Positions 22,940 to 29,920 of a stretch of 33,645 bases of DNA are shown one piece after another. A model generated the notes under the pieces. That model was not told the DNA's origin. It was given only the letters and a program-made list of their open reading frames with translations, and did no database searches. The stretch's first letter is position 1. Each line of letters opens with the position of its first letter. Location of the stretch: the NCBI GenBank assembly GCA_947625955.1, contig CANQQH010000002.1:1-33645 (forward strand), in the 5' to 3' direction. A program made the position numbers and the translations under genes. The stretch comes from an uncultured Clostridia bacterium. GTDB taxonomy: Bacteria > Bacillota > Clostridia > Christensenellales > UBA1242.

Positions 22940-23725
22940 CTAATCAAGTCGTGGTTTTGCAAGCGTGTAGAATTTGTCAATGATTTCGCAAAATTCTTTT
23001 GGAAGTTTATTTCTAGCCTGCTGTTTTAGATCTTGGTCAATCCCAAACAACGCTTCTGCCATACTTCCAACAATGCACGCGTTTGTGTCGGTGTCGCCGC
23101 CGAAATATATCGCTTTTTTGATGGCTTCTTCAAACGAATTTGAACTAAATAACGCAAACAAGCAGACATCGATTGTTTCGTGGCAAGTCAAATTGAAGTG
23201 CGTTAACCTAGGCTTTTTGATTTTCAGTTTCAGCTTGTCCATAATTTCTTCTTTCGAAAGACCCTGCCTTGCATAGAAGATGATCAGCGCAATCGTCGTG
23301 GCGCACGAAATCGCTTCCTCTGTGTTGTGCGACGGGATTGTGCAAAGCCGCGCGTTCTTGACAACCTCTTCTTCGCTTTCAAAGAAATTCCCAACCGGTG
23401 AAATTCGCATCATTGCCCCGTTACCCGCACTATTTCCGTCGGCCTTTCCTTTCGCCCAATTCGTGAAGTTTGGCGAGAACATCGACTTGAAATATGGAAT
23501 ACCCTTTGGTATTTTTTCGTCAAATTCGAGTGCATACTCCCTGAGCTTTTTCTCGTAGCTTTGCTTGTTTATAATCGCGTCGGCAACAGCAACTGTGAGA
23601 ATAGAATCATCGCTGAAAAACGCATCGTCCTCAATGATCTTTCCAATCTTCACCTTGCAATGGCGGCTCACCTGCCCAAACTCATAGACCGACCCCGCCA
23701 AATCTCCAATAATCGCCCCAAACAT
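22940..23725 (-). CDS. ADP-ribosylglycohydrolase family protein
   Basis: The start at 23725 (AAAGGAGAGGAA before it, 261 residues) is chosen because the longer track start runs through the promoter. Motifs of the DraG/ARH family: IIGDLAGSVYEF (GDxxGS, 5-16), SDDS (38-41), GNGAMMRISPVG (101-112), and FGGDTDTNACIVGSMAEALFG (208-228), which supplies the second pair of metal-binding Asp. It should remove ADP-ribose from proteins or small molecules in the cytoplasm with two Mg2+. No dinitrogenase partner or ADP-ribosyltransferase is seen nearby, so the target is open. Confidence 0.92.
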   Translation of the reverse strand: MFGAIIGDLAGSVYEFGQVSRHCKVKIGKIIEDDAFFSDDSILTVAVADAIINKQSYEKKLREYALEFDEKIPKGIPYFKSMFSPNFTNWAKGKADGNSAGNGAMMRISPVGNFFESEEEVVKNARLCTIPSHNTEEAISCATTIALIIFYARQGLSKEEIMDKLKLKIKKPRLTHFNLTCHETIDVCLFALFSSNSFEEAIKKAIYFGGDTDTNACIVGSMAEALFGIDQDLKQQARNKLPKEFCEIIDKFYTLAKPRLD

Positions 23726-23744
23726 TTCCTCTCCTTTCATTTCC

Positions 23745-23773
23745 ATTATACCACCTTCTCCCCTTTCTTCCAA
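23745..23773 (-). promoter_or_regulatory. promoter, TTGGAA-N17-TATAAT family
   Basis: On the minus strand: TTGGAA (23773-23768), 17 bases ending GAGAAGGTGG, TATAAT (23750-23745). It drives the ADP-ribosylglycohydrolase/GNAT operon. Confidence 0.7.
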
Positions 23774-23903
23774 ACCTTTCTCGCAAGAAATCACAATATA
23801 AGCGCCACCTCAAACTTCAAGTATTGCTTTTTATACAAATAATTGATTTGATTTGAAATTTGTTATATTAAAGATTTAATTTAAGAAATTAATTATTCAT
23901 ATT

Positions 23904-23939
23904 GGTTAAGTTCCTTTTTGATTCTTGATATGGTATAAT
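23904..23939 (+). repeat. degenerate terminal CRISPR repeat with intact promoter
   Basis: It differs from the consensus at 8 of the first 25 positions and at none of the last 11 (TATGGTATAAT). It is the first repeat in the crRNA sense, so it can act only as promoter for spacer 1 and is never used as a crRNA handle. Confidence 0.85.
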
Positions 23940-25074
23940 TTCATTTGAAAAGACAATTGGATTAATCCAGTTTTAGTTCCCTATTGGATTTTGGTATGGT
24001 ATAATTTATTCCGACGAGGATTGGTTGCATGATAAGTTTTAGTTCCCTATTGGATTTTGGTATGGTATAATTCTGTTAAGAAACATGAAGCCCTTATCAA
24101 GTGTTTTAGTTCCCTATTGGATTTTGGTATGGTATAATATTGAAAGTTAAGCCTGCGTCACCGCAATTGTTTTAGTTCCCTATTGGATTTTGGTATGGTA
24201 TAATCCGCGCGGGCGGCATTCTTGACGATAGCATGTTTTAGTTCCCTATTGGATTTTGGTATGGTATAATTCTTGTATTTGACAAAATGTCATACAGATA
24301 GTTTTAGTTCCCTATTGGATTTTGGTATGGTATAATTTTTGCGCAGCTCTTTCATATCGTTTGACAGTTTTAGTTCCCTATTGGATTTTGGTATGGTATA
24401 ATAGTTTTTCTCGCCACTGTGTCATCTAGTGAGTTTTAGTTCCCTATTGGATTTTGGTATGGTATAATGGAAACTAAAATAGAGTGAACAGGATTATAAC
24501 CCAACCATAGGTTTTAGTTCCCTATTGGATTTTGGTATGGTATAATTAAAAGGCTCAGTTTTTGCATGGATTAAAAGTTTTAGTTCCCTATTGGATTTTG
24601 GTATGGTATAATAAAAGCAACAAGCCCCAATAAATTAGGACAGTTTTAGTTCCCTATTGGATTTTGGTATGGTATAATAACCATCAAGTGAAAAAGCATA
24701 ACCGTCTTGTTTTAGTTCCCTATTGGATTTTGGTATGGTATAATTTTAACTCCATGATGGATTTTTTCAGCTCAGTTTTAGTTCCCTATTGGATTTTGGT
24801 ATGGTATAATTAGCGTTTTCACTGGCAAATTGATACCTAAGTTTTAGTTCCCTATTGGATTTTGGTATGGTATAATAGGGCGGTCGCACGGAGGTTAAAA
24901 ATTATGGTTTTAGTTCCCTATTGGATTTTGGTATGGTATAATTGGAGCAATTTCCTCACCACAAGAAAGATAGTTTTAGTTCCCTATTGGATTTTGGTAT
25001 GGTATAATCAATAATCGATATTATATATACGGCAAAAAGTTTTAGTTCCCTATTGGATTTTGGTATGGTATAAT
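23904..25074 (+). CRISPR. type II-C CRISPR array, 18 repeats / 17 spacers
   Basis: Seventeen identical 36-base repeats (starting GTTTTAGTTCCC, ending TATGGTATAAT) begin at 23970, 24036, 24103, 24169, 24235, 24301, 24367, 24433, 24511, 24577, 24643, 24709, 24775, 24841, 24907, 24973 and 25039. One degenerate repeat (8 changes) is at 23904-23939. Spacers are 30 bases except 31 at 24072-24102 and 42 at 24469-24510. The GTTTTAG start and the complementary anti-repeat of the tracrRNA fix the crRNA sense as +, opposite to the cas genes. Each repeat ends with TGGTATAAT, an extended -10, so each crRNA can start inside its own spacer, leaving a guide of about 24 nt. This arrangement is known for Neisseria and Campylobacter. 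Spacer targets cannot be found by eye. Confidence 0.99.
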
Positions 25075-25088
25075 AGGCAACTAAAAAC

Positions 25089-25131
25089 AAAGAGTTCAAC
25101 ATTCGATATTTTCGTTCGTTGAACTCTTTTT
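25089..25131 (+). terminator. terminator at the cas2 end of the array
   Basis: Perfect 12-base arms AAAGAGTTCAAC (25089-25100) and GTTGAACTCTTT (25118-25129) followed by T residues, 14 bases after the last repeat. It should stop array transcription before it runs into cas2 on the opposite strand. On the minus strand it may also end the cas operon (A-run on the other arm). Confidence 0.8.
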
Positions 25132-25155
25132 CATTATAATGATTTTTTCGAAATT

Positions 25156-25476
25156 TTAGAAAAAACTTAATTGATTGCTTTCAACTTTTTTCTCTTTTTT
25201 CAAAGGAACACCAGTTAAAATCTTCATTGAGGAATATTGTTTTTCAGTCACAATCATAGAGCGCACTGAACCTGTTTTGGGAACTTTTACCGCAACTCTG
25301 TCCTGATGCAGTTGAGCTGATTCCAACGTGTTGCACACTCTTCCATAGAGGCTATATTGTATCATATAGAAGCCATCTTTTATCAAAAAGTTCCTAAATT
25401 GTGTTGCCTCTTTTCTTTCAACAGCAGTCACAACGGGCAAATCAAAAAAGACCAAGATTCTCATAACTCTACTCAT
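25156..25476 (-). CDS. cas2: CRISPR-associated endonuclease Cas2
   Basis: Cas2 of the adaptation complex, in which a Cas2 dimer bridges two Cas1 dimers for spacer integration. MRILVFFDLPVVTAVERKEATQFRNFL is the ferredoxin-like first half with the conserved Asp (FFDLP), and IQYSLYGRVCNT is the next strand pair. The track gives a start at 25500, but MSRVMRILVFFDLP from 25476 is far more usual; its ATGAGTAG overlaps the cas1 stop. A start at 25464 (MRILVFF) is also possible. It is the last gene of the tracrRNA-cas9-cas1-cas2 row; no csn2 or cas4 follows, which defines subtype II-C. Confidence 0.95.
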   Translation of the reverse strand: MSRVMRILVFFDLPVVTAVERKEATQFRNFLIKDGFYMIQYSLYGRVCNTLESAQLHQDRVAVKVPKTGSVRSMIVTEKQYSSMKILTGVPLKKEKKVESNQLSFF

Positions 25477-26359
25477 ACTTGTGCACATTGAGCCCAACAA
25501 TTTTGATTTGTTTTATTTCTCTCTTATTTGTTTTCAAACATTCCAAAAAACTCTCAACATAAATATCGATCGCGTTTGAGAGCGTTTGCATTTTACCATC
25601 AACTTCAACGTCTATATTAATTATATTATAAATCCGTGTTTTTATCTCGGTTGTGACAGCAGTTTCTTTATCAAGATAAATTTTCACAAACAAGTCCACA
25701 ATTGGCCTAAATGGTTCCATCAGATCATCTGCCAAATTAAATTGGTTGAACTGATTTGAATGTTTTATTCCCCAAAACGGCATGAGGCCATGCACAACTA
25801 TACTTCGCGCAACAAATCCGCGTATGATTGCATAACCATAGTTCAAAAATGCATTGATAATGTTATCGTTCCTACGCTTGAAGTCTTTGTTAAACAATTC
25901 TTTGAAATAAATTTGACTTGCTGTTGCTTCAACGTTGCTGCTATCATCACTCAGCACACTATCAGCCAAATTTTTGAGTTTGTCATTCCCGCCACAGATA
26001 TTCAAGACTTCGTTTTGATTCCTAATTTTATTTTTTACAACATTTTGCCATAGTTGTTTTATCAATGGTTTGCTTGCACCAATTTGATGGTTGTAGTTCA
26101 AAATATTATAATGTTGGCAATATGGCAGCAACACGCCACAGGGCAAGTGTTTTTCGTCGCAAACAAAGACCAAAACACCGTTCTGCGCAAACTGAGAAAG
26201 AGTGTAATTTGAAATGCTTCCACTCATATTTTCTATCATAACGCTATTAATGTCTTCAAGTGGATAATCGTTTTGCTGTTCTGAGTTTTTCAAAAACACC
26301 TGGTTGTTCTTTATGTTTATATGCGCTTCATTGCCCACAAAAATATTAATATAACCCAT
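25469..26359 (-). CDS. cas1: CRISPR-associated endonuclease Cas1 (type II)
   Basis: The 296-residue integrase of the adaptation complex. The metal-binding residues of the Cas1 family are visible: Glu144 in VEATASQIYF, His200 in WGIKHSNQFNQFNLADDL and Glu215 in LMEPFRPIVDLFV. The N-terminal beta domain (MGYINIFVGNEAHINIKN...VFLKNSEQQ) and the length are normal for subtype II-C. Its ATG overlaps the cas9 stop as TAATG, with AAGGAAAG inside the end of cas9, so it is translationally coupled to cas9. No truncation. Confidence 0.98.
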   Translation of the reverse strand: MGYINIFVGNEAHINIKNNQVFLKNSEQQNDYPLEDINSVMIENMSGSISNYTLSQFAQNGVLVFVCDEKHLPCGVLLPYCQHYNILNYNHQIGASKPLIKQLWQNVVKNKIRNQNEVLNICGGNDKLKNLADSVLSDDSSNVEATASQIYFKELFNKDFKRRNDNIINAFLNYGYAIIRGFVARSIVVHGLMPFWGIKHSNQFNQFNLADDLMEPFRPIVDLFVKIYLDKETAVTTEIKTRIYNIINIDVEVDGKMQTLSNAIDIYVESFLECLKTNKREIKQIKIVGLNVHKYE

Positions 26360-29718: not shown

Positions 29719-29791
29719 TAGTATCTCCTAAGCAACTATAATTAACGACATAATAACACACTTTTCATTCGTTGGCTAGTATTTTTCAAAC

Positions 29792-29886
29792 AAAAAGACC
29801 ACCTTCTCAGGTGATCACTTACTGGATGGGCTTTCGCCCACCATTATTTTAGTAACCTATTGAACTTTGGTATGGTATAAGTTACA
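29792..29886 (-). ncRNA. tracrRNA of the type II-C system
   Basis: On the minus strand, just below the promoter, the RNA begins near GTAACTTATACC. Bases 29847-29880 form the anti-repeat: read on + they match the CRISPR repeat at most positions (TTTTAGTAACCTATTGAACT then TTGGTATGGTATAA), so the RNA can pair with the crRNA repeat. The tail has a tetraloop hairpin TGGGC-GAAA-GCCCA (29827-29840) and a terminator hairpin GATCACCT-GAGA-AGGTGGTC (29797-29816) followed by five T. The total of about 95 nt is typical of II-C tracrRNAs. The crRNA:tracrRNA duplex would carry mismatches in its middle, which form the usual bulge. Confidence 0.9.
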
Positions 29887-29891
29887 TTTTC

Positions 29892-29920
29892 ATTTTATAG
29901 TATCTTTCCCCTTTTGTCAA
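29892..29920 (-). promoter_or_regulatory. tracrRNA promoter
   Basis: On the minus strand: TTGACA (29920-29915), exactly 17 bases, TAAAAT (29897-29892). The start point predicted about 7 bases on falls just before the anti-repeat. Confidence 0.8.

Follow-up and report, generated by a model that had tools for sequence, protein, structure and literature searches.

A type II-C CRISPR array with putative promoters in its repeats and a worn oldest repeat in an uncultured Clostridia bacterium

The CRISPR array in the window analysed here (the whole stretch of 33,645 nucleotides from an uncultured Clostridia bacterium) is best explained by repeats that each bear a promoter: the handle of the oldest repeat has decayed, its -10 end was probably kept for the crRNA of the first spacer, and erosion at the array edge adds to the pattern. 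We give this reading a probability of about 0.68. From the sequence and from experimental precedent we infer that RNA polymerase would start about 6-8 nt into the next spacer, from the extended -10 element at the end of each repeat, and that each crRNA would consist of a guide of about 24 nt followed by the 5' handle of the next repeat. Spacers would enter at the cas2 side, which would make the repeat at 23904 the oldest, preceded by no spacer. The 5' half of this repeat, which is the handle that pairs with the tracrRNA, would be part of no functional crRNA and would have decayed, and its 3' 11 bases would still drive the crRNA of the first spacer and were probably kept for that reason. General erosion of the outer edge of the oldest repeat probably contributes as well, and therefore the pattern is consistent with, but no proof of, selection on the promoter.

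The locus belongs to the ordinary II-C type of CRISPR-Cas9 systems (Table 1). The cas9-cas1-cas2 genes lie on the minus strand, convergent with the array on the plus strand, and are the only cas genes detected with Pfam, NCBIfam and PADLOC, without csn2 or cas4; the gap between cas2 and the array holds no further gene. As expected for II-C, Cas9 is compact, Cas1 is of the NMENI type, and a tracrRNA with an anti-repeat, for which both a promoter and a terminator are predicted, is found near cas9. The 36-nt duplex of anti-repeat and repeat is predicted at -44.0 kcal/mol. Read on the plus strand, the anti-repeat is TATGGTATAAG, nearly an extended -10 element itself. An ORF tested upstream of cas9 gave no Pfam match, and no Rfam RNA family was found across the window. 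Between the convergent array and cas operon there is a hairpin with a T-run on both sides, absent from the listing of the short-loop terminator scan, which is likely a bidirectional terminator. Upstream of the array, the closest gene (22940-23794, an ADP-ribosylglycohydrolase-like ORF) is divergent and points away from it.

Table 1. Features of the CRISPR-Cas9 locus, in coordinates of the window
Feature	Position	Strand	Basis or remarks
CRISPR array, 18 repeats of 36 nt, crRNA sense	23904..25074	+	Whole-window repeat scan
First repeat (oldest, leader-distal)	23904..23939	+	GGTTAAGTTCCTTTTTGATTCTTGATATGGTATAAT; 8 substitutions; last 11 bases intact
Extended -10 element TATGGTATAAT of first repeat	23929..23939	+	Fits TRTGnTATAAT; outside the array, 49 sites in the genome against 1 for the reversed control
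Spacer 9, 42 nt	24469..24510	+	Starts with GGAAACTAAAAT (12 nt), like the family leader, then 30 nt
Last repeat (newest, leader-proximal), perfect	25039..25074	+	Repeat comparison
Leader start AGGCAACTAAAAACA	25075..25089	+	Nearly complementary to repeat 5' handle; predicted hairpin with last repeat
Hairpin, T-run on both sides	25089..25133		Fold -18.6 and -18.2 kcal/mol
cas2	25156..25500	-	PF09827, E 1.2e-14; Cas2_II
cas1, type II (NMENI)	25469..26359	-	TIGR03639, E 7.6e-82, above cut-off
cas9, 1119 aa	26359..29718	-	TIGR01865, E 1.5e-232; relatives are solved Cas9
Predicted tracrRNA, upstream of cas9, with Rho-independent terminator at its end	29790..29885	-	Terminator 29816-29797 plus T-run
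tracrRNA anti-repeat	29846..29881	-	6 mismatches to repeat; pairs along the whole repeat, -10 region included
tracrRNA promoter TTGACA-17-TAAAAT	29892..29920	-	11/12 consensus matches

The repeat scan confirmed the composition of the array given in the original prediction, coordinates and counts included: 17 perfect repeats and a degenerate one, whose eight changes all fall in the first 25 bases (positions 2, 5, 12, 14, 18, 19, 21 and 25) and none in the last 11 (26-36). Repeats 2-18, with starts from 23970 to 25039, are identical (GTTTTAGTTCCCTATTGGATTTTGGTATGGTATAAT), no further copies of the repeat occur in the 1.04-Mb genome bin, and the spacers are 30 nt long, apart from one of 31 nt and one of 42 nt. 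The longer of these, spacer 9, would be explained by a single integration about 12 nt into the leader, importing leader sequence into the array. Given that a conserved leader and a perfect repeat mark the downstream end, next to cas2, and the worn repeat the upstream one, the repeat at 23904 is most likely the oldest, as described for II-C. Protospacers, which would be independent proof of crRNA orientation, gave no credible match in phage records, and searches of viral contigs with the four newest spacers found no exact match of 24-25 nt.

The element TATGGTATAAT is present in all 18 repeats, with four further exact copies in the genome, and it fits TRTG-n-TATAAT, the Gram-positive extended -10 consensus (PMC2613000). 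Searching the genome of the organism (G000) for TRTGNTATAAT returned 67 sites, 18 in the array and 49 elsewhere, against one for the reversed pattern used as control. Among 17 distinct sites sampled outside the array, 13 are intergenic and 10 precede an ORF start of their own strand by 17-39 nt; by its genomic context, the element behaves as a promoter motif of the host. The motif is strongly over-represented in G000 and seems to be a main promoter type of the organism. Within the family of the window, the repeats of 15 arrays are nearly invariant over bases 2-13 (the handle) and 21-36 (ending in the -10 element) and vary in the middle, at bases 14-20. Finally, no sigma-70-type site was found on the plus strand in the region scanned (23700-25300). 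Together with experimental precedents elsewhere, the enrichment in the genome, the position near gene starts, the conservation in the family and the lack of a plus-strand promoter upstream support the proposal that all repeats contain an extended -10 promoter, which is very likely right.

These precedents come from other II-C systems. In Campylobacter jejuni, whose repeats likewise all carry a -10 box in their 3' part and whose array is accompanied by cas9-cas1-cas2 only, crRNA start sites map inside the spacers (Dugar et al. 2013, PMC3656092); start sites were mapped in that organism, whereas the evidence presented here comes from sequence, and the repeat and Cas9 differ. Closer to the present case, RNA-seq of Clostridium cellulolyticum H10, of the same class, revealed a crRNA for every spacer, with 23-26 nt of spacer, and there too the last nine bases of the repeat form an extended -10 element and the array is opposite to the cas operon (PMC7038990), although its Cas9 has 1021 aa rather than 1119 aa. 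The first repeat of an array in our set that is probably that of C. cellulolyticum H10 (L116) has two changes (bases 12 and 18), compared with eight here. The array is also similar to the system of Neisseria meningitidis, in which, according to papers that cite the original work, processing-independent crRNAs arise from extended -10 promoters embedded in the repeats (PMC5006608, PMC7038990).

The retention of the -10 end was then compared across related II-C arrays. Cas9 relatives were taken from the family and class of the window, from the orders of a Helicobacter and a Rhodocyclaceae locus, and from Bacteroidota, and their arrays were extracted and oriented by script; because the first detector (mismatch limit 15) missed short remnants, the retention of suffixes was assessed anew at the expected spacing, against a null drawn from random positions. 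The set comprised 89 arrays with a -10-like repeat end, a type of opposite polarity being set aside; 46 of them had an altered first element, and dropping one without a real -10 left 45. These 45 altered first repeats carry 313 changes in bases 1-25 and seven in bases 26-36, with a mean of 4.9 changes per position over bases 19-25 compared with 0.64 over 26-36. In 42 of them both TG and hexamer are intact; the three exceptions are TATAAT to CATAAT in L039, TG to TA in L151, and TACAAT to TATAAT, an improvement, in L183. Two of the seven inner changes strike the free N of TGnTATAAT. Thus the degenerate terminal repeats of related arrays decay unevenly and mostly keep the -10, which is the outcome foreseen when this comparison was proposed.

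The worn repeat of the window conforms to this pattern. Because it retains 68% identity over bases 1-25, we regard it as a product of point decay and not of replacement by unrelated sequence, and replacement of the outer edge up to a breakpoint, instead of point decay, seems to have taken place in 27 of the 45 altered first repeats. The upstream flanks of the array could not be aligned with those of a genome of the same genus (G132), and therefore the two first repeats are not comparable as orthologues.

Such replacements bear on the strongest alternative, namely that the outer edge of the oldest repeat is eroded generically, by boundary rearrangement or position-dependent decay, the inner part being the last to go and the promoter irrelevant. 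As a control for this we used Bacteroidota II-C repeats of 46-48 nt whose last 11 bases lack a -10 box and among which 21 first repeats are altered. These, too, lose the outer edge; the inner 11 bases were kept in 17 of the 21, against 38 of the 45 with a -10, and any change in the inner 11 bases was seen in 4/21 and 7/45, respectively (P = 0.73). Four Cas9-linked, Campylobacterales-like arrays of opposite polarity (L168, L169, L177 and L180) point in the same direction, given that their worn repeat, downstream in the crRNA sense, keeps its handle (the first 21-26 bases) and loses the outer part, there the 3' -10 end (the last ~10 bases). The inner half of the oldest repeat therefore outlasts the outer half in general. 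Since repeats without a box leave the same pattern, the original prediction overstates the case in ascribing the pattern of decay to selection on the promoter alone, and with mostly outer-edge replacement and the loss of the -10 half where wear is at the opposite end, that claim is not established.

Erosion alone nevertheless fits other features of the data less well, and as a full account of the pattern it seems rather unlikely. The drop at base 25/26 (ratio 0.09, 95% interval 0.03-0.17) falls at the edge of TRTGnTATAAT and is steeper than that from the outer to the middle third of the repeat (0.38, 0.23-0.55); the few inner changes include the two at the free N and the one that improves the box; and the first repeat of the window has point changes dispersed as far as base 25 and none beyond. 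In the point-mutated subset, changes in the inner 11 and the mid 10 bases stand at 4:17 with a -10 and at 4:1 in Bacteroidota (P = 0.02), a comparison that is small, uncorrected for kinship and split post hoc. That purifying selection on the promoter shaped the first repeat is likely but not proved.

Several further observations concern the arrays used in this comparison. Remnants reduced to the hexamer (L054 and L126) were considered as cases of promoter-only survival and dropped, given that remnants in the Bacteroidota arrays L088 and L089 are equally short. The Bacteroidota repeats (L070-L104, L214-L240) have a TTG near base 2-4 and a TAnnTTTG-like motif near 24-32, about 20 nt apart, a pattern which, judged from the motifs, is reminiscent of a Bacteroidota promoter extending across the repeat. 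Bacteroidota first repeats have often lost the outer TTG; this loss was discarded as a clean test, the promoter there not being mapped. In L136, L148, L170, L178, L203 and L213 two or three separate arrays with the same or a related repeat lie near one cas9, several of them with a worn first repeat of their own.

A second alternative is selection against useless, "extraneous" crRNA, in which mutations of the handle would be favoured for stopping tracrRNA pairing and the 3' end would be no target. It was proposed for extra repeats of II-C arrays by Feussner et al. (2025, PMC12080349), who analysed 364 such arrays, describe the first repeat as the oldest, mutated in 60% of cases and mostly within the first 15 nt, and suggest that it has to go on serving as a promoter for the first spacer. 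In agreement with their proposal, the first 24 nt of our first repeat are predicted to pair less stably with the anti-repeat, at -7.7 instead of -23.9 kcal/mol; however, eight random substitutions in bases 1-25 weaken the pairing equally (mean -9.1, 5-95% range -15.0 to -4.6 kcal/mol). Furthermore, nothing upstream, neither promoter nor gene, is directed into the first repeat, so that little extraneous RNA is expected, and the same authors could not ascribe the mutations to positive selection. We consider this explanation improbable for the present array.

It is also conceivable, if very improbable, that the TATAAT end is no promoter but was kept for full-length pairing with the anti-repeat, the array being read from one upstream promoter. 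The anti-repeat does pair over the whole repeat, and in L108, where the repeat has T for G at base 30, the anti-repeat tracks this change with a matching A for C; therefore, in ordinary repeats at least two constraints act on the last 11 bases. Pairing, however, cannot account for why the first repeat has kept them although its handle has ceased to pair, and neither the absence of an upstream promoter on the plus strand of the scanned region nor the association of the motif with gene starts in this genome agrees with it. The earlier statement that only a promoter role remains is thus reasonable for the first repeat, but the same bases of the other repeats have the anti-repeat to pair with as well. 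Chance is the least probable alternative: eight random changes over 36 positions would all fall in the first 25 with P = 0.036, for a pattern picked after the fact, which makes the clustering in this repeat taken alone only modestly unlikely, but the identical 5' bias of the 45 related first repeats stands against eight neutral changes having merely missed the last 11 bases.

At the other end of the array, the leader is a fresher lead than the worn first repeat. Directly after the last repeat stands a motif, AGGnnnCTAAAA, which is complementary to the 5' handle of the repeat and resembles the tracrRNA anti-repeat (AGGTTACTAAAAT), with identity over 12 bases in G132, G092 and G057. According to fold predictions, each of the 15 family arrays can form a hairpin between the first 15 nt of its leader and the handle of its last repeat, in which 9-12 of 13 handle bases pair, with a mean of -10.8 kcal/mol compared with -4.2 kcal/mol for repeat plus spacer. 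The leader motif was found in the window (25039-25089) and in L035, L036, L037, L039, L040, L041, L047, L051-L053, L055, L108 and L111. Outside the family such a hairpin is near background (8% versus 4%), except in L160, L161, L164 and L167, which belong to another lineage. A leader-repeat hairpin is known in type II-A, but at the opposite end from the one proposed here, and the accessible portions of the literature searched on leader-repeat hairpins yielded no description of one at a II-C leader. We tentatively postulate that the family leader mimics the tracrRNA anti-repeat and folds, as RNA or DNA, with the handle of the newest repeat, and that it might control the newest crRNA or mark the integration site.

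The clustering of changes at the 5' side and the idea that the promoter is retained are already in print (Feussner et al. 2025, PMC12080349), and the present array is an instance of them; where these authors stress the blocking of extraneous crRNA, we have added a test of the -10 position by position, with box-less repeats as control. The array bears out, for an uncultured Clostridia family, the existing knowledge of II-C arrays. Should selection on the promoter be proved, a worn first repeat would amount to a natural mutational scan of the bases that the promoter needs, readable from genomes alone, and such a scan needs the control of box-less repeats before it is read as selection.
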